Positions 36,677 through 45,317 of a DNA stretch of 64,000 bases are shown here, piece after piece. Location of the stretch: contig NZ_SRWZ01000003.1 in the NCBI RefSeq assembly GCF_004804355.1, positions 62,001 through 126,000 of the forward strand. Reading direction: 5' to 3'. This stretch comes from Cognatitamlana onchidii (lineage in GTDB: Bacteria; Bacteroidota; Bacteroidia; Flavobacteriales; Flavobacteriaceae). Within the stretch, counting starts at the first letter, position 1; every line of letters begins with the position of its first letter. The notes under the pieces are model-generated. The model made no database searches, was not told the origin of the DNA, and worked only from the letters and a program-made list of their open reading frames with translations. A program made the position numbers and the translations under genes.

Positions 36677-37270
36677 TTATTTGTGTCGTCCTTTTAATTC
36701 GTTTTCAATATCTTTTAAAGTAAATCCTTTAGCCTGGAGCAGCATGAGGTAATGAAATAGTAAATCGGCAGACTCATAAAGGAATAATTCATCATTATTA
36801 TCCATTGCTTCAATAACTGTTTCCACAGCCTCCTCTCCTACTTTTTGAGCGACTTTATTAATACCTTTTGAAAACAAACTCGCTACATATGATTTTGTAG
36901 TATCTTTATTAGCAACACGCTCAGTAATCACATCTTCTAAAGTTGAAAAGAATCCGTAAGATTGCTCATTTTCTTCTCCCCAGCAATTACCCGTTCCCTT
37001 ATGACAAGTAGGACCCACAGGATTTACAGTAATTAATAACGAATCATTATCACAATCATTTTTTATTGAAACTAGCTCTAAAAAATTACCGCTTTCTTCT
37101 CCTTTGGTCCATAAACGCTGTTTACTTCTACTAAAAAAAGTTACTTTTTTAATCTCTAAAGTTTTTTGATAAGCTTCTTCGTTCATATACCCCAGCATCA
37201 ACACATTTCTTGTTGTAGCGTCTTGAATGATTGCTGGTACTAGTCCGCTTTGATCGTATTTTATTTCCAT
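36677..37270 (-). CDS. hisI: Bifunctional phosphoribosyl-AMP cyclohydrolase / phosphoribosyl-ATP pyrophosphatase
   Basis: Performs steps 2 and 3 of histidine synthesis. Residues about 1-105 are the cyclohydrolase (NVLMLGYMN, then DCDNDSLLITVNPVGPTCHKGTGNCW with zinc and magnesium ligands), and about 110-197 the pyrophosphohydrolase (SKGINKVAQKVGEEAVETVIEAM, ESADLLFHYLMLL). I take the start at 37270 (MEIKYDQSG); an ATG at 37300 would add ten residues overlapping a palindrome. It follows hisF and precedes the TruA-like gene by 6 bases. Confidence 0.96.
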   Translation of the reverse strand: MEIKYDQSGLVPAIIQDATTRNVLMLGYMNEEAYQKTLEIKKVTFFSRSKQRLWTKGEESGNFLELVSIKNDCDNDSLLITVNPVGPTCHKGTGNCWGEENEQSYGFFSTLEDVITERVANKDTTKSYVASLFSKGINKVAQKVGEEAVETVIEAMDNNDELFLYESADLLFHYLMLLQAKGFTLKDIENELKGRHK

Positions 37271-37289
37271 AATCTTTATTTTGTTTATG

Positions 37290-37306
37290 GCTGAAATCAT
37301 TTCAGC
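37290..37306. repeat. Small palindrome at the hisF-hisI junction
   Basis: GCTGAAAT-C-ATTTCAGC is a perfect 8-1-8 inverted repeat between hisF and hisI. In the mRNA it could form a hairpin just before the hisI start. Confidence 0.5.
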
Positions 37307-37313
37307 AAGATGA

Positions 37314-38069
37314 CTAAAGTCGCACTTCTATATTATGTTTTTTCAATTCTTTTTTTAGTTTAGGAATGGGAATTTCTCCAAAGTGAAATACACTAGCTGC
37401 TAAAGCGGCATCAGATTTACCTTCTTTAAACGTATCTACAAAATGTTGCACATTACCAGCGCCACCAGAGGCTATAATTGGAATATTAAGCATCTCTGAT
37501 AGTTTAGCAAGTGATTTATTGGCGAACCCATTTTTAGTACCGTCATGATTCATTGATGTAAATAAAATTTCTCCAGCTCCGCGCTTCTCCACCTCTTTGG
37601 CCCATTCAAATAATTTGATATCTGTTGGAATGGTGCCTCCAGCAAGATGCACGAACCATTCAGCATCTATTTCTTTGGCATCAATAGCAACTACCACACA
37701 CTGACTTCCAAATTTATCCGCTAGCTCATTAACTAATTCTGGACGTTTTACTGCGGATGAATTAATAGATACTTTATCTGCGCCATTTTTTAATAAAGCA
37801 TCTACATGTTCTACACTCGATATGCCGCCACCTACCGTAAAGGGAATGTTAACTTGTTCCGCCACACGAACCACCATATCTAATGTAGTTCCTCTATTTT
37901 CTAAAGTGGCTGCAATATCTAAAAACACCAACTCGTCGGCTCCTTGGTCGGCATATTGTTTTGCCAATACTACTGGGTCTCCAGCGTCGCGTAAATCTAC
38001 AAAATTGACCCCTTTTACGGTACGTCCGTTTTTGATATCCAGACAGGGTACTATTCGCTTAGTTAACAT
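37314..38069 (-). CDS. hisF: Imidazole glycerol phosphate synthase, cyclase subunit
   Basis: TIM-barrel subunit that uses ammonia from HisH to make imidazole glycerol phosphate and AICAR. The 251-residue protein has [19 protein letters not shown] at the start, the first phosphate site VGGGISS, and the second half-barrel site ASGGAGN. Asp11 (CLDI) and Asp130 (AIDA) correspond to the catalytic pair. It overlaps the hisA end by 11 bases, so translation is coupled. Confidence 0.97.
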
Positions 38070-38787
38070 TTACAATATAGTTTTCAAGTTGTTTAAGACT
38101 TAGTTTGTTTTCATAAATGGCCTTGCCTATTATGGTACCTTCACAGCCCAATGCTGCTAATTTTGGTAATTCGTCAAATTTTGAAATACCTCCGGAAGCT
38201 ATAAGTTTTACACCATTTAATGCTTTCAACATCTTTTTATATAAATCAAACGACGGACCTTCTAACATACCATCCTTAGCAATGTCAGTACAAATTACAT
38301 AAGACACCCCTTCCCTCATATAGTTCTCTACAAAAGGAATCAACTCTTCATTAGATTCTTCTAACCAACCACTTATGGCAATTTTTTCATTGTTAGCATC
38401 GGCACCTAAAATTATTTTATCTGCTCCAAATTTTGATAACCAACTTTTAAAAATCTCTGGTTTCTTTACGGCAATACTTCCTCCTGTAATTTGACCAGCT
38501 CCAGACTCAAACGCAATTCTTAAATCTTCATCCGTTTTTAGTCCACCGCCAAAATCAATCTTTAAATTGGTTTTAGTTGCGATGGTTTCTAAAACTTTGT
38601 GGTTTACAATATGACTTGCTTTTGCACCATCTAAATCCACTAAATGTAAATACTCAATTCCGTGATCTTCGTATTGCTTTGCAATTTCTAGTGGATTTTC
38701 GTTATATATTTTCTTTGTGCTGTAATCACCTTTGGATAACCTTACACATTTTCCTTCAATAATATCTATTGCTGGTATTATTCGCAT
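38059..38787 (-). CDS. hisA: ProFAR isomerase
   Basis: Isomerises ProFAR to PRFAR in step 4 of histidine synthesis. The 242-residue TIM barrel starts [16 protein letters not shown], carries [14 protein letters not shown] and the catalytic Asp region [12 protein letters not shown], then [10 protein letters not shown]. Its ATG sits next to a 20-base palindrome, on the far side of which lies the broken GIY-YIG gene. It overlaps hisF by 11 bases. Confidence 0.97.
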
Positions 38788-38806
38788 TGATTAACTTGTT
38801 AATCAA
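38787..38806. repeat. Perfect palindrome at the hisA start
   Basis: TTGATTAAC-TT-GTTAATCAA is a perfect 9-2-9 inverted repeat beginning at the last base of the hisA ATG. It marks the 3' flank of the GIY-YIG remnant and could be a processing or insertion-boundary element. Confidence 0.5.
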
Positions 38807-38814
38807 CCCTAAAT

Positions 38815-39120
38815 TTATTTCAGGGTCTTTTTATTAATTTCTATTCTTAAAAGATTTGGATTTGATGCTTTAATCAAACTCCATTTCCATTGTTTATGCC
38901 AATTTTTTAATTGTTTTTCTTTACTTCTGGCTTCCTGCATCGCATCAAACTCTTCAAAATAAATCAAATCTAAAACATTATACTTTTAAGTAACTAAAGC
39001 TCCTTTTCCGTTTAAATGTTCACTTAATCTTTGTTTTAGGTTTTCGGTATATCCAACATAATAATACCGTTCTATTTTTATTTGATAATTTGTACCATTA
39101 ATATTTAGCCATTTGCAAAG
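38815..39120 (-). pseudogene. Broken GIY-YIG endonuclease gene inside the his operon
   Basis: Reading the minus strand gives YQIKIERYYYVGYTENLKQ, then RLSEHLNGKGALVT, an in-frame TAA, and then KYNVLDLIYFEEFDAM and EARSKEKQLKNWHKQWKWSL before a stop at 38815-38817. These are the successive blocks of small UvrC-N/GIY-YIG nucleases (YYVGYTxNLxxRLxEH; LIYFE; EAxxREKQLKxW). There is no ATG in frame before the conserved region; a TGA precedes it. The first GIY strand is degraded. So the gene is dead by at least one premature stop and a damaged start. It lies between hisH and hisA in operon orientation. Confidence 0.8.
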
Positions 39121-39121
39121 A

Positions 39122-39141
39122 TCCTGAAAACAAGTTCAGGA
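39122..39141. repeat. Palindromic element flanking the GIY-YIG remnant
   Basis: TCCTGAA (39122-39128) and TTCAGGA (39135-39141) form a perfect 7-base hairpin around AACAAG, immediately upstream of the GIY-YIG remnant and 6 bases from the hisH stop. The sequence recalls CCTGAACTTGTTTCAGG-type elements that I remember from Bacteroidota intergenic regions; that resemblance is from memory only. Confidence 0.5.
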
Positions 39142-39146
39142 CGATT

Positions 39147-39728
39147 CTAAAGGTTCAAAAAATTCTCGAGAATTTTTGCTCCCTTAGAACCACTCTTCTC
39201 AGGATGAAATTGCGTTCCATAAAAATTCTCATGTTGCAACGCCGACGCATAATTAATACCATAATCTGTTTTTGCTATGGTTTCATTACAATGTTCTGCA
39301 TAATAGCTATGTACTAAATACATATACTCACTTTCCTTAATGTCTTTAAATAAATCTGACTTTAAATCTTTAATAACATTCCACCCCATTTGAGGTACTT
39401 TCACATCATCTGAAAACCGTTTAACGTTGGTTTGGAAAATACCTAAACCGATGGTGTTACCTTCTTCAGTATGTAAACACATTAATTGCATACCTAAACA
39501 AATACCTAATACTGGTTGTTTCAAATTAGGAATCAGTTTATCTAAACCACTTTCCTTAAGCATTTCCATTGCAGAACTTGCTTCTCCTACGCCTGGAAAT
39601 ATTACTTTATCAGCAGCTTTAATTTCTTCTGGATCGTTTGACAGCAAAGTATCATACCCTAAACGTTTAAAAGCAAATTGAATGCTTTTTATGTTTCCTG
39701 CGCCGTAATCTATTATAACTAATTTCAT
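39147..39728 (-). CDS. hisH: Imidazole glycerol phosphate synthase, glutaminase subunit
   Basis: Glutamine amidotransferase that supplies ammonia to HisF. The 193-residue protein has IIDYGAGNIKSIQFA, IFPGVGEA, the nucleophile block PVLGICLGMQLM (Cys), and the His-Glu pair in GTQFHPEKSG. A repeat-like spacer of 68 bases separates it from hisB upstream. Downstream lies the decayed GIY-YIG gene, before hisA. Confidence 0.97.
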   Translation of the reverse strand: MKLVIIDYGAGNIKSIQFAFKRLGYDTLLSNDPEEIKAADKVIFPGVGEASSAMEMLKESGLDKLIPNLKQPVLGICLGMQLMCLHTEEGNTIGLGIFQTNVKRFSDDVKVPQMGWNVIKDLKSDLFKDIKESEYMYLVHSYYAEHCNETIAKTDYGINYASALQHENFYGTQFHPEKSGSKGAKILENFLNL

Positions 39729-39733
39729 TTATA

Positions 39734-39764
39734 AGCTCTTGGCTTTTTGCTCTCAGCTATTAGC
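39734..39764. repeat. Dispersed repeat copy 1, hisB-hisH spacer
   Basis: A 31-base segment (starting AGCTCTTGGCT and ending AGCTATTAGC) matches the spacer copy at 40942-40972 at 25 of 31 positions. It lies just before the hisH start codon. Confidence 0.6.
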
Positions 39765-39796
39765 AAAATGCTAGTAACTAAAGGCTAAAAGCTATT

Positions 39797-40933
39797 TTAC
39801 AACATTCCTTTTGTGCTTGGTAAAAACATCTTGTTGGTATCACGTTTTACCGCCATTTTCATCGCTTTAGCAAAGGCTTTAAAAATACCTTCAATTTTAT
39901 GATGCTCATTAACGCCTTCTGCTTTTATGTTTAAGTTACATTTCGCACCATCGGTAAACGATTTAAATAAATGAAAAAACATTTCGGTAGGCATATCTCC
40001 TATCTTTTCGCGTTTAAATTCTGCATCCCATTCTAACCAATTTCTCCCTCCAAAATCTACAGCTACTTGTGCTAAGCAATCGTCCATTGGTAAACAAAAA
40101 CCATAGCGCTCGATACCTAATTTATCACCTAAGGCTTTATTAAATAATTCACCAAGAGCTATCATGGTGTCTTCAATGGTATGATGTTCGTCAACTTCTA
40201 AATCCCCATCAACTTTAATGGTTAAATCCATGGCACCATGGCGCCCGATTTGGTCTAGCATATGATCGAAAAAAGATAAACCTGTGTCGATATTATTCTT
40301 ACCAGACCCATCCAGGTTTAATTTTATATAAATCTGAGTTTCATTAGTATTACGTGTTATTTCCTTAACTCTTGATTTAAGTTTTAAAAACTCATATATT
40401 TCTTTCCAATCTGTACTTGTTAAAGCAATACAGTCTGTAATATCTTGTTTAGATGTTTCAATTTCATCGATTCCTAATTCTGGGTCTTTGGCCATAAAAA
40501 CACCTTTAGCTCCAAGGTTTTTTGCTAACTCCATATCGGTAATTCTATCACCTAAAACGAAGGAGCTCTCTAAGTCATAGTCTTCAGAAAAGTACTGGGT
40601 TAACAATCCAGTTCTTGGTTTACGTGTATTCGCATTTTCATGTGGAAACGTTTTATCAATATGAATTGCAGAAAACTCCACTCCTTCTTTTTTAAAGGCA
40701 TCAATAATTTTATTTTGAGCAGGCCAAAACGTGTTTTCAGGAAAACTATCTGTCCCTAACCCATCTTGATTGGTAACCATAACCAATTCATAATCCAACT
40801 CACTGGCAATTTTCGCCATGTATTGAAATACCTTTGGGTAATATTCTAACTTCTCTAAACTATCTAATTGATAGTCTACAGGTGGTTCTAAAACTAATGT
40901 TCCGTCTCTGTCTATAAATAATACTTTTTTCAT
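39797..40933 (-). CDS. hisB: Bifunctional histidinol-phosphatase / imidazoleglycerol-phosphate dehydratase
   Basis: Two enzymes in 378 residues. The N-terminal HAD phosphatase (about 1-165) has [16 protein letters not shown] and a metal-site KPRTGLL, plus [14 protein letters not shown]. The C-terminal dehydratase (about 190-378) has [28 protein letters not shown], and [20 protein letters not shown] with manganese-binding histidines. The fused form is usual for Bacteroidota and enterics. It lies between hisC and hisH with repeat-like spacers on each side. Confidence 0.97.
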
Positions 40934-40941
40934 TGCTTTAT

Positions 40942-40972
40942 AGCTTTTGGCTATTGGCAGTTAGCTATTAGC
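40942..40972. repeat. Dispersed repeat copy 2, hisC-hisB spacer
   Basis: A 31-base segment, AGCTTTTGGCTATTGGC onward to AGCTATTAGC, related to 39734-39764. It includes TTAGCT-ATT-AGCTAA (40961-40975), a perfect 6-3-6 inverted repeat, just before the hisB start. Confidence 0.6.
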
Positions 40973-40985
40973 TAATTTCCAACAG

Positions 40986-42020
40986 CTATAACATTTTCAT
41001 AACTTCAATTAATTTTTCATTTTCAGCTTCAGTTCCAACTGTAAAACGCAAACAATTTTCACAACCAGGTTGAGTTGTTCTATTTCTAATTACAATCCCC
41101 TTTTCAATCAACTGATTGTAACGTTTCGTGGCATCATCAACTTTAGCTAAAACAAAATTCGCATCGGTTGGATAAATTTTAGACACAAAATTTATCTCTT
41201 TTAACTTCTCAGTCAAAACATCACGTTCCCTCAAAATATCTGCAACTTGTTGTTTTGTAATTTCATTTTGCTCTAATTGAGCAATCGCTTTTTTTTGAGT
41301 TAATTCGTTGACGTTGTAAGGGGGTTTAATTCTATTTAAAATAGATATGATTTCTTCTGAAGCATAACAAATACCTAATCTAATTCCTGCCATTCCATAG
41401 GCTTTAGATAAGGTTTGAGTCACAATTAAATTTGGAAATTCTTCTAATCTACTCGCCCAACTTTCTTCATTCGAAAAATCAATATAAGCCTCATCAATCA
41501 CTACAATACCTTTAAACTCCTTGATTAGCCTTTCAATGGATTTAGCCTTAAAACTATTGCCTGTAGGATTGTTTGGTGAACAAAGGAATAACAATTTGGA
41601 ATTAGCATCTGCTATATCCAATATAGCGTCGACTCTTGGCTCAAAATTAGCATCTAATTCGACACGTTTTATACCAATAGCATTAATGTTGGCCAATACG
41701 CTATACATGCCGTAAGTTGGTGGCAGTATGATAATACTATCTTGATTTGGTTCACAAAAGGCACGGTAAATCAAATCTAATACTTCATCGCTTCCATTTC
41801 CTAAAAGTATATTTTTTTGGGGAATAGACTTGATTTTTGAAAGCAAGGATTTAACTGTACGTTGTTGCGGGTCAGGATACCTGTTCACACCATTCTCAAA
41901 CGGATTTTCGTTTGCATCCAAAAACACCATATCGTCGCTATTACCCTGATATTCATCTCTTGCCGATGAATAGGGTTTTAGTGCCTTTACGTTTGGTCTT
42001 ATTAAATCTTGAATATTCAT
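40986..42020 (-). CDS. hisC: Histidinol-phosphate aminotransferase
   Basis: PLP fold-type I aminotransferase for step 7 of histidine synthesis. The 344-residue protein shows DANENPFENGVNRYPDPQQ, LGNGSDEVLDL, CSPNNPTGN, VIDEAYIDFS and the PLP-lysine block TQTLSKAYGMAGIRLG. It overlaps hisD by 4 bases (start ATGA), indicating coupled translation. Confidence 0.97.
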   Translation of the reverse strand: MNIQDLIRPNVKALKPYSSARDEYQGNSDDMVFLDANENPFENGVNRYPDPQQRTVKSLLSKIKSIPQKNILLGNGSDEVLDLIYRAFCEPNQDSIIILPPTYGMYSVLANINAIGIKRVELDANFEPRVDAILDIADANSKLLFLCSPNNPTGNSFKAKSIERLIKEFKGIVVIDEAYIDFSNEESWASRLEEFPNLIVTQTLSKAYGMAGIRLGICYASEEIISILNRIKPPYNVNELTQKKAIAQLEQNEITKQQVADILRERDVLTEKLKEINFVSKIYPTDANFVLAKVDDATKRYNQLIEKGIVIRNRTTQPGCENCLRFTVGTEAENEKLIEVMKML

Positions 42021-43303
42021 GACTTCAAATCCTTTAATCGAATGCTTACCGCATTTTTGTGTGCCTGTAAACCTTCTGCTTTCGCCATTAACTCAATAGT
42101 TTCTCCTATATTCAAAAGCCCTTCTTTTGATATTTTCTGAAAGGTCATACTTTTCATGAAACTATCTAGATTCACTCCAGAATAAGCTTTTGAAAATCCA
42201 TTTGTTGGTAATGTATGATTGGTTCCTGAGGCATAATCTCCAGCACTTTCAGGCGTATAATCACCAATAAATACAGAGCCTGCATTACATATACCATCAA
42301 TATATAAATCTTCATTTTTACAGCAGATGATAAAGTGCTCTGGTCCGTACTCATCAATCATATCCAATGCTTTTTCATCAGTATCAACATAAATCAATTT
42401 TGAATTTGCAATTGCTTTTTCTGCTATGGCTTTACGTGGTAAAACAGCTAATTGCTTTTCAACTTCTTCTTCTACTTCATCTATAATGTGCTTTGAAGTA
42501 GACACTAAAATCACCTGGCTATCTGTACCATGCTCTGCCTGACTTAAAAGGTCTGATGCTATATAAGCCGGATTAGCAGATTCATCAGCAACCACCAATA
42601 ATTCGCTAGGGCCAGCAGGCATATCAATTGCTACACCATACTTAGTAGCAATTTGTTTAGCTACGGTTACAAACTGATTTCCTGGCCCAAATATTTTGTA
42701 AACCTTAGGAATGGTTGTTGTCCCGAAGGTTAAACCTGCAATGGCTTGAATACCACCAACTTTAATAATTTTTGTTACACCACACAGTTGTGCAGCAAAT
42801 AAAATTTCAGGAGCCAATGCGCCTTGTTTATTGGGTGGCGAACACAAAATAATTTCCTTACAGCCCGCTATTTGTGCAGGGACAGCCAACATTAATACCG
42901 TTGAAAACAATGGTGCCGTTCCTCCTGGAATATAAAGACCTACCTTCTGTATGGGTCTTTTCTCTTGCCAGCAATCTACACCATTCGTTGTTTCAATAGT
43001 TACTTTTGATGTTTTTTGGGCAGCATGAAACACTTCAATATTTTGCTTTGCTTGCTTTATGGCATTCTTTAATTTCTCAGGAACTTTTTTAACAGCTTTT
43101 TCAATTTCTATGGAGGTAACAACATGAGATTCTAAAACAATTTCATCAAATTTAGCAGTGTATTCGCTAATAGCCAGATCTCCTCGTTCTGAAACATCAT
43201 TAAAAATTTGAGTCACTATACCTTCAATATCCCCAACAGTTTGTGTTGGACGCTTTAAGATTTTAGACCAGCTGTTTCTATTTGGATTTTCAATTTTTTG
43301 CAT
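42017..43303 (-). CDS. hisD: Histidinol dehydrogenase
   Basis: Zinc enzyme that oxidises histidinol to histidine in two NAD-linked steps. The 428-residue protein has VGLYIPGGTAPLFSTVLMLAVPAQIAGC, IFGPGNQFVTVAKQ, IDMPAGPSELLV, LLSQAEHGTDSQ (zinc/catalytic His) and GPEHFIICC. It follows hisG by a 25-base repeat-like spacer and overlaps hisC by 4 bases. Confidence 0.97.
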   Translation of the reverse strand: MQKIENPNRNSWSKILKRPTQTVGDIEGIVTQIFNDVSERGDLAISEYTAKFDEIVLESHVVTSIEIEKAVKKVPEKLKNAIKQAKQNIEVFHAAQKTSKVTIETTNGVDCWQEKRPIQKVGLYIPGGTAPLFSTVLMLAVPAQIAGCKEIILCSPPNKQGALAPEILFAAQLCGVTKIIKVGGIQAIAGLTFGTTTIPKVYKIFGPGNQFVTVAKQIATKYGVAIDMPAGPSELLVVADESANPAYIASDLLSQAEHGTDSQVILVSTSKHIIDEVEEEVEKQLAVLPRKAIAEKAIANSKLIYVDTDEKALDMIDEYGPEHFIICCKNEDLYIDGICNAGSVFIGDYTPESAGDYASGTNHTLPTNGFSKAYSGVNLDSFMKSMTFQKISKEGLLNIGETIELMAKAEGLQAHKNAVSIRLKDLKS

Positions 43304-43306
43304 TTA

Positions 43307-43331
43307 AATAGGCTTTTACTAATAGCTATTA
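43307..43331. repeat. Dispersed repeat copy 3, hisG-hisD spacer (shortened)
   Basis: On the minus strand this spacer reads TAATAGCTATTAGTAAAAGCC before the hisD start, matching the TAATAGCT...AAAAGCC pattern of the hisB-hisH and hisC-hisB spacers with an internal deletion. Confidence 0.4.
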
Positions 43332-44186
43332 TAACACCATTTTTTCGATAGGACATACTAAAATACCTTGTGCGCCTTTAGCTTTTAGATCGTCAATAAC
43401 ATCCCAAAACTGGTTTTTGCTTATTACCGAGTGAATGGAGCTCCAACCTTCTTCTGCTAAAGGTAAAACAGTAGGACTCTTCATTCCTGGAAGTACATCA
43501 ATAATTTCCTTAACTTTTTCATTAGGTGCATTGAGCAACACATACTTAGAATTTCTTCCTTTTAAAACCGATTTAATTCTAAATTGAATCTTCTCTAAGA
43601 TAACTTGTCTTTCATCATCTAATTTGGGAGATACCGCCAGCACAGCTTCAGATTTTAAAATCGTGTCGACTTCTTTTAAATTGTTTTTAAACAGCGTACT
43701 TCCACTAGACACAATATCGCAAATAGCATCTGCAAGTCCAATATTTGGTGCAATTTCAACAGAACCATTAATAATGTGCAAATTTGCATTGACGCCATTT
43801 TTATCAAGAAACATTTGTACCGTATTAGGATAAGAAGTTGCAATACGCTTACCTTCCAAGTCTTTTATACTATTGTAATTATAGGCCTTTGGTACTGCAA
43901 TACAAACACGACAGGTGGAAAATCCTAGTTTTTCAACCACACCAATACCTTCTCCTTTTTCGATTAAAACATTTTCTCCAATAATGGCAGCATCTACTAC
44001 ACCATCCTTTAAATATTGAGGTATATCACCATTTCTTAGATAAAACACTTCAACAGGAAACCCTTTAGCAGAAGCTTTTAATTGGTCTTTTCCGTTTTCA
44101 ATAGAAATACCAATATCCTTTAATAGTCTCATCGAATCCTCGTTTAATCGACCCGATTTTTGAACTGCAATCCTTAGTTTACTCAT
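43329..44186 (-). CDS. hisG: ATP phosphoribosyltransferase (long, regulatory form)
   Basis: First and committed step of histidine synthesis, joining ATP and PRPP. The 285-residue length and the C-terminal ACT-like HisG_C domain (KAKGAQGILVCPIEKMVL at the end) show the long hexameric form, which is feedback-inhibited by histidine and needs no HisZ. Other blocks are RIAVQKSGRLNEDS, YLRNGDIPQYLKDGVVDAAIIGE and DIVSSGSTLFKNNL. I choose the ATG at 44186 (MSKLRIAVQ); an ATG at 44213 would add nine residues. It is the first structural gene of the his operon, 36 bases after the attenuator stem. Confidence 0.96.
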   Translation of the reverse strand: MSKLRIAVQKSGRLNEDSMRLLKDIGISIENGKDQLKASAKGFPVEVFYLRNGDIPQYLKDGVVDAAIIGENVLIEKGEGIGVVEKLGFSTCRVCIAVPKAYNYNSIKDLEGKRIATSYPNTVQMFLDKNGVNANLHIINGSVEIAPNIGLADAICDIVSSGSTLFKNNLKEVDTILKSEAVLAVSPKLDDERQVILEKIQFRIKSVLKGRNSKYVLLNAPNEKVKEIIDVLPGMKSPTVLPLAEEGWSSIHSVISKNQFWDVIDDLKAKGAQGILVCPIEKMVL

Positions 44187-44235
44187 TTTGTTCTTTTTAT
44201 GAGTTTGAAACAATCGTGTTAGATTTTAAAAATAA

Positions 44236-44264
44236 AAACCCGCTTGATTGTCTCAAACGGGTTT
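44236..44264 (-). terminator. his attenuator terminator
   Basis: On the minus strand AAACCCG...CGGGTTT with an inner TTGA/TCAA pairing forms a GC-containing hairpin followed directly by TTTTTATTTTT. It lies between the leader peptide and hisG. The 5' arm can instead pair with the end of the leader (TCTCAAGCG at 44310-44302 with CGTTTGAGA at 44259-44251, nine pairs including one G-T), which would form an antiterminator. Confidence 0.85.
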
Positions 44265-44295
44265 AAAATATATGTTGATTTTATTCAATACATTT

Positions 44296-44349
44296 TCACT
44301 TCGCTTGAGAGCAAATTTGAGAATGATGATGTAAATGAATAAAAGTCAT
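44296..44349 (-). CDS. hisL: Histidine operon leader peptide
   Basis: A 17-codon ORF on the minus strand encodes MTFIHLHHHSQICSQAK, with four His codons at positions 5, 7, 8 and 9 and a TGA stop. It is placed between the his promoter and the terminator upstream of hisG. Stalling at the His codons when charged tRNA-His is scarce would leave the leader's 3' part free to pair with the terminator's 5' arm. The His enrichment in a random 17-codon frame is very unlikely by chance. Not detected by length-based gene finders. Confidence 0.88.
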   Translation of the reverse strand: MTFIHLHHHSQICSQAK

Positions 44350-44366
44350 AATCTTGTTTTACGCTG

Positions 44367-44398
44367 CAAATATCAATAAAATATCTAATTAAATCCAA
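44367..44398 (-). promoter_or_regulatory. Probable his operon promoter
   Basis: On the minus strand TTG (44398-44396) and GATATTTG (44374-44367) are 21 bases apart, matching the -33/TAnnTTTG pattern with one mismatch. Transcription would start about 10 bases before the hisL ATG. Confidence 0.5.
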
Positions 44399-44501
44399 AT
44401 TATAAATAGAAATCTTATCACATTTAAAAATTATTTGATATTCTTTTTAAAAAATTCAATTATCATCAAAATATGAAGATAAATACTAAATAAACTACGT
44501 T

Positions 44502-45317
44502 CTATTGATTCCCTAATATAATAGGCATGCCACTTTCACCAGAACCAATAACTATAACTTTGCTGTTTGGAGATTCGGATAATTTAATAGTAGCTTCTAT
44601 ACCTTTATCTTGAAGAATTTTATCTGTTAAAGAGGCACTTAAAATTTTATTAGCGTCTGCTTTTCCTTGTGCTTCAATTCGCTGTTTTTCAGCTTCTTTC
44701 TGAGCTGTTACTAGCCTAAATTCATATTCTAGAGATTCTTGCTCCTGTCCTAACTTACGCTCAATCGCATCCTTAATTGCCGTTGGTAAAGTTACATCTC
44801 TTACAAGTACTTCCACCAATTCGATATATTGATCATTTACAATTTTTTTTGTCTCATCAAATATCTCTTGTTGAATAGCATCTCTTTTTGAAGAGTATAT
44901 TTGCTCAGGCGTATATCTACCCACAACACTTCTTGTTGCAGAACGAATAGCTGGTTTTAGTACGCGTTCTAAGTAATTGGCTCCTTTTTCTTGATGGAGT
45001 TTCCCTAAATTTTCAGTTTCTGGCATATACCATGCTGTTGCCTCCAGTTGAATATCTAGTCCATTGGATGATAACACTTTCATACGCTCCGTTAACTCTT
45101 GTTGTCTCACCTCATAAATAAATACTTTATTCCATGGAGCAACAATATGAAACCCTTCACCTAAAGGGGCTTCTTCTGTAACAACTCCACCTCCAAATGT
45201 CTTGTACAGCACTCCCGCCTCACCAGATCCAATGGTTACTGCAGATTTGGTTAAAACAATGACTAATACAATTCCTGCCAAAATAAAAGGCAAGGCTACT
45301 TTTGGTAATTTTTCCAT
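44502..45317 (-). CDS. Prohibitin/SPFH family membrane protein
   Basis: A 271-residue protein with one N-terminal membrane helix (FILAGIVLVIVLTKSAVTIG) and an SPFH domain (GEAGVLYKTFGGGVVTEEAPLGEGFHIVAPWNKVFIYEVRQQE), followed by a coiled-coil helix (LEYEFRLVTAQKEAEKQRIEAQGKADANKIL). Such proteins assemble into large membrane rings that organise lipids or proteases such as FtsH/HflKC. It is the last gene of a minus-strand run (VWA-SDR-prohibitin) with 21 bases to the SDR; the run ends about 290 bases before the his leader. Confidence 0.9.
   Translation of the reverse strand: MEKLPKVALPFILAGIVLVIVLTKSAVTIGSGEAGVLYKTFGGGVVTEEAPLGEGFHIVAPWNKVFIYEVRQQELTERMKVLSSNGLDIQLEATAWYMPETENLGKLHQEKGANYLERVLKPAIRSATRSVVGRYTPEQIYSSKRDAIQQEIFDETKKIVNDQYIELVEVLVRDVTLPTAIKDAIERKLGQEQESLEYEFRLVTAQKEAEKQRIEAQGKADANKILSASLTDKILQDKGIEATIKLSESPNSKVIVIGSGESGMPIILGNQ

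Follow-up and report, generated by a model that had tools for sequence, protein, structure and literature searches.

The DNA directly upstream of hisG in the flavobacterium Cognatitamlana onchidii very probably comprises a ribosome-mediated transcription attenuator of the his operon, a reading to which we assign a probability of about 0.93. In the window, that is, the whole stretch of 64,000 nucleotides that was analysed, a leader, a terminator and an antiterminator stand 5′ of a complete his operon (Table 1). This proposal, made from sequence, draws directly on the leader ORF, on three helices and their covariation, on the geometry of these elements and on their link to hisG, from which we infer that the promoter is used, that the leader is translated, that transcription terminates, that the system responds to histidine and that the switch is kinetic.

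Table 1. Features of the his leader and its surroundings in the window.
Feature	Position	Strand	Remarks
Band_7/SPFH protein gene	44502-45317	-	Directly upstream of the his leader, same direction, ends at 44502
-33 box, TTTG	44396..44399	-	21-bp spacer; assigned on the pattern of known Bacteroidota promoters
-7 box, GATATTTG	44367..44374	-	Type TAnnTTTG; transcription predicted to begin near 44362
Leader ORF, MTFIHLHHHSQICSQAK	44296..44349	-	17 codons; ATG at 44349, TGA ends at 44296 (stop included); His codons 5, 7, 8, 9
Protector helix 5′ strand (segment 1)	44324..44348	-	Inside the first leader codons
Antiterminator arm A, TCTCAAGCG	44302..44310	-	Within leader codons 14-16
Protector helix 3′ strand (segment 2)	44276..44298	-	At and after the leader stop
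Arm B	44251..44264	-	Terminator 5′ arm at 44264-44253; helix with arm A formed by 44259-44251
Terminator hairpin	44264-44236	-	12-bp stem, 5-nt loop; AAACCCGTTTGA-GACAA-TCAAGCGGGTTT, then TTATTTTTA
Terminator 3′ arm C, TCAAGCGGGTTT	44236..44247	-	
U tract of terminator	44226..44238	-	
hisG (long form)	43329..44186	-	First operon gene; Pfam HisG and HisG_C
hisD, hisC, hisNB, hisH, hisA, hisF, hisIE	36677..43303	-	Remaining his operon genes, in this order after hisG

Architecture of the his Leader

It was verified that the 17-codon ORF with histidine codons at positions 5, 7, 8 and 9, described in a previous sequence-only reading of this DNA, is present where that reading had placed it, and the hairpin and T tract claimed to follow it were found at 44264-44226. 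This hairpin, an intrinsic terminator lying between the leader ORF and the first gene, folded at -16.6 kcal/mol (z -6.65) and was the sole terminator found in the region, with 0.0 expected in shuffled sequences. The possibility that it represented a cassette shared with other operons was rejected, since a search of the genome matched the his site only.

The end of the leader harbors the segment TCTCAAGCG (44310-44302), which is complementary to CGTTTGAGA (44259-44251), so that the proposed nine-pair antiterminator between the leader end and the 5′ arm of the hairpin does exist; the corresponding fragment folded at -17.2 kcal/mol (z -5.4). Beyond what the earlier reading had described, a third pairing, of the protector (1:2) type and involving leader codons, was identified, joining the first part of the leader ORF (44348-44324) to the bases past its stop (44298-44276). 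In 89% of species, the duplex formed by the protector strands of the species' own sequence outperformed that of shuffled sequences (P ≤ 0.05), the register of the helix differing between clades, and the whole leader folded at -35 kcal/mol (z -5.95).

A promoter-like pair had also been claimed upstream of the leader, and the TTTG...GATATTTG arrangement seen there fits the Bacteroidota TAnnTTTG type; a sigma-70 scan of the region was uninformative for this phylum. In 101 of 105 relatives, a -7 box preceded the leader ATG at a conserved distance. Among the 105 family loci, this distance was bimodal, with 4-11 bases in 34 species (L084, L097, L109 and L110 among them) and 14-22 in 66. In F. psychrophilum, the published transcriptome study places the -7 box at -12 to -5 (PMC9723704). 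From this position, the leader ORF is predicted to begin 0-7 nt from the RNA 5′ end in approximately one-third of the genera, that is, about a third of the genera in the family would produce near-leaderless hisL transcripts, and in the window species the corresponding distance is predicted to be ~13 nt. Initiation of the leader appears to proceed without a Shine-Dalgarno (SD) site.

With regard to the neighbourhood, the nearest named HisG proteins were those of Hyunsoonleella and Algibacter, with 94% identity, which places the window near these marine genera within the Flavobacteriaceae. An apparently broken GIY-YIG nuclease gene was observed between hisH and hisA (window 38815-39135, minus strand), split by a stop codon into two fragments, the second of which gave a weak Pfam match (E 0.003) below the cut-off. 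Upstream of the leader, an end motif resembling LPLILGN was also seen in the distant relatives L093, L103, L104 and L247, indicating that the neighbourhood on the Band_7/SPFH side is conserved.

Conservation of the Leader and Its Link to hisG

The distribution of the leader was assessed in 149 Flavobacteriaceae genomes, approximately one per genus, of which 122 presented hisG, and the upstream DNA was read for all 122. A short ORF with clustered histidine codons preceded hisG in 121 of them, the remaining one being cut by a contig end, and the RNA element was carried by all 122. Among the first 110 loci, 105 presented a terminator preceded by a short ORF in which three or more histidine codons were counted and a run was present; the other five comprised four ORFs with two to three clustered histidine codons, such as MNKKHTHLHFDPGAQAR, and the locus cut by the contig end. 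The last 12 loci included 11 with a His-rich ORF and one weak form with two histidine codons, recognised by eye (MKKTHYIHNYNIISNEM). The placement of a His-rich short ORF before hisG is far above chance, since it was counted in 104 of 110 family loci, as against two of the 110 when the opposite strand was read and 0.9% of shuffled sequences. The loss of the histidine codons in relatives had been put forward as one observation that would speak against the attenuator; they were conserved in every relative that could be evaluated, and all 79 named relatives for which upstream DNA was available, Algibacter, Tamlana, Polaribacter, Tenacibaculum and Maribacter among them, had the leader.

A covariance model built from the leader (R1), for which only 17 loci outside the training set served as independent test loci, found the element beside hisG in all hisG-bearing genomes of the family except one, in which it was placed on the end of another contig. 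Conversely, a strong R1 match was obtained in only one of the 27 family genomes without a hisG match. In this genome (G027, contig C11, locus L235), the leader is followed by ~24 hisG codons fused to an apparent hisIE end, apparently the relic attenuator left by a deletion of the his operon. Weak R1 matches, checked in three genomes, corresponded to ordinary terminators. A second, near-identical his leader without hisG behind it was observed in another genome (G138, contig C126, locus L234), whose contamination was 2%.

This association with hisG bears on whether the hairpin is a mere terminator of the upstream Band_7/SPFH gene, next to which the His-rich ORF and the complementarity would be incidental. 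That gene runs in the same direction and its readthrough would also stop at the hairpin. However, a conserved promoter box, a His-rich ORF and a co-varying arm lie between the two in ~100 genera, and the element is absent or weak in 26 of the 27 genomes without a hisG match, which makes such a coincidence hardly credible.

Covariation of the Alternative Helices

In an alignment of 105 leaders, the terminator pairs were formed in 98.6% of cells, with 7 of the 12 pairs changed on both sides. The antiterminator pairs were formed in 93.0% of cells, versus at most 48% in any slid register, and 42 of its cells were changed on both sides versus 17.4 in shuffled sequences. The best single case was L073, in which arm B has CCCATCTGA in place of CCCGTTTGA, with matching sequences in arm C (TCAGATGGG) and arm A (CAGGTG), so that each of two positions underwent a coordinated three-way change of A, B and C. 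The sequence of arm B was almost invariant across the family, which leaves fewer independent compensations available. Thus, the covariation of the two alternative stems, by which it had been suggested that the attenuator be judged, was observed in the arms of both the terminator and the antiterminator.

The conserved ending of the leader peptide, QA[RKS], is encoded by arm A. Arm A falls in a different reading frame in five species and contains a stop codon in three others, the RNA arm being kept in all of them. The survival of the arm under a frame change or an internal stop indicates that selection acts there on the RNA rather than on the peptide, and, as QA[RKS] is lost in these cases, the conserved peptide end would be a by-product of the RNA arm. 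These observations also concern the idea that the peptide, or the terminated RNA of 120-130 nt, works in trans as a small protein or a small RNA. Trans-acting leader peptides are known elsewhere, as described for peTrpL (PMC7298713), and a conserved peptide end such as QA[RKS] would be in line with such a role. Nevertheless, that end encodes arm A and disappears where the frame is changed or interrupted while the RNA arm stays, and a primary trans function is accordingly considered extremely improbable, although the evidence for the arm as RNA leaves room for an added one.

Geometry of Translation and the Proposed Switch

The spacing between the leader ATG and arm A fell into a single phase in 100 of 105 species; no phase was kept by the spacer between the arm and the terminator. 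This pattern is expected of a translated leader followed by untranslated RNA. The last histidine codon was separated from arm A by a median of 12 nt (5-95% range, 11-14), and the end of arm A from the end of the stop codon by a median of 6 nt. Considering the size of the ribosome footprint, which is general knowledge, these distances imply that a ribosome at the histidine codons would leave the arm free, and that a ribosome at the stop would cover it. By position and covariation, the A-B helix is therefore a candidate antiterminator exclusive with the terminator, whose 5′ arm could be masked at the stop and released upon stalling at histidine codons.

The regulation would proceed as follows. 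RNA polymerase would start near position 44362, and a ribosome would begin translation of the 17-codon leader. When charged His-tRNA is ample, the ribosome would pass the histidine codons, reach the stop and cover arm A; arm B would then pair with arm C, forming the terminator, and transcription would end before hisG. When charged His-tRNA is scarce, the ribosome would stall at His codons 5-9, ~12 nt before arm A, displacing the protector helix. In this way, the freed arm A would pair with arm B ahead of arm C synthesis, the terminator would come too late and the operon would be transcribed.

A thermodynamic switch at equilibrium was considered and is unsupported, since equilibrium folding favoured the terminator in all three ribosome positions, with a median probability of ~0.96. 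This result implies that the attenuator would have to rely on the order of synthesis, with A-B pairing preceding the production of C. In the free RNA, arm B was often engaged with upstream bases at the stage preceding arm C (median 0.65), which suggests that the untranslated state may leak.

His Leaders in Other Bacteroidota Families

His leader ORFs are not restricted to the Flavobacteriaceae. Of 80 further hisG loci of the phylum, almost all belonging to other families, 58 had such an ORF upstream; by set, a His-rich leader was present in 30 of 40 and 28 of 40 loci, versus none and one on the opposite strand. Many of these leaders were followed by a terminator of unrelated sequence, for example of the AAAGGCTTACC or AACCCCGGC types, together with a predicted pairing between the leader and the arm, and a like architecture built on unlike sequence argues for selection on the mechanism. 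In the same 80-locus set, no intrinsic terminator was detected after the His leader in several other families, and no leader was found by the same His-rich ORF test in the lineages with the most divergent HisG.

In family f22 (16 loci), the leader ORFs were very rich in histidine codons, no intrinsic terminator was found, and the leaders often started with GTG ~4 bases after a TATATTTG-like box; these leaders are probably leaderless and have a different output. The His leaders upstream of hisG in families f8 (three loci) and f3 (five loci) included HHFHHSS, HHLHLHHRR and relatives, and no strong intrinsic terminator accompanied them, there being either none found or a weak A/T-rich hairpin, the latter in two of the f3 loci. 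Rho-dependent or translational control of the f8 and f3 leaders is possible.

The His-rich leaders without a detected intrinsic terminator indicate that another output must exist in the phylum, and it could be argued that in the window species, too, leader translation acts mainly through Rho-dependent termination or coupling to hisG translation, the intrinsic hairpin being secondary. Against this, the leader is followed there by a strong intrinsic terminator with a U tract, which co-varies with the antiterminator, so that this view is regarded as very unlikely, and transcription attenuation remains the preferred reading. For the phylum as a whole, we tentatively suggest, at somewhat less than even odds, that His leader-peptide control is ancestral in Bacteroidota, operating without SD sites and near-leaderless in one-third of Flavobacteriaceae genera, and that in some lineages the terminator was replaced by Rho-dependent or translational control.

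Comparison with Known Systems

Ribosome-mediated attenuation of his operons is textbook knowledge and is usually taught as a proteobacterial device. A comparative paper on attenuators by Vitreschak et al. in 2004 reportedly included Bacteroidetes/Chlorobi. The enterobacterial hisL and the leader described here share a short ORF with tandem histidine codons, a protector, an antiterminator and a terminator, placed before hisG in an operon of the order hisGDC(NB)HAF(IE). They differ in that the sequence and helix layout of the window leader are unrelated to those of hisL, its promoter is of the Bacteroidota type and there is apparently no SD site. In an Rfam search under strict and permissive settings, no leader family reached its gathering score, and His_leader was absent even among the weak matches. 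Of the enterobacterial hisL logic attributed to this element by the sequence-only reading, the logic itself holds, and the helix layout is the element's own.

A 2021 transcriptome study of F. psychrophilum described, in front of hisG, a structured 5′ element that is conserved in further genera of the Flavobacteriaceae and is not represented in Rfam, and it reported strong indications of leader-peptide attenuation ahead of amino-acid operons (PMC9723704). This element agrees with that of the window in family and position, from which we infer that they are the same; the main text of the study is silent on its anatomy, leader peptide and covariation. In view of these data, the earlier statement that experimental descriptions were lacking in Bacteroidota was too strong, and what stands of it is that the literature search yielded no direct experimental proof of attenuation. 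No paper providing a leader peptide or covariation for a Bacteroidota hisG was found among the openly readable main texts.

In Firmicutes, His attenuators placed before his or hisS-type genes comprise runs of histidine codons, a terminator and an antiterminator (PMC9413887; PMC2965389), with three to five histidine codons per run in the leader peptides (PMC9413887). They resemble the window element in their His-run leader, terminator and antiterminator, and differ in belonging to another phylum. A 2010 survey had considered leader-peptide systems unproven outside Proteobacteria and Actinobacteria (PMC2965389). The mechanism is known and the element had been reported in part, and what is new is its anatomy, its covariation, its phylum-wide spread and the predicted near-leaderless leaders in one-third of the genera. 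Classical attenuation would thus serve as a general gauge of histidine in Bacteroidota, whose ribosomes mostly skip SD sites; the conserved leader yields an annotation model (R1) ready for Rfam, and leader ORFs placed at or next to the RNA 5′ end offer a natural test of attenuation.
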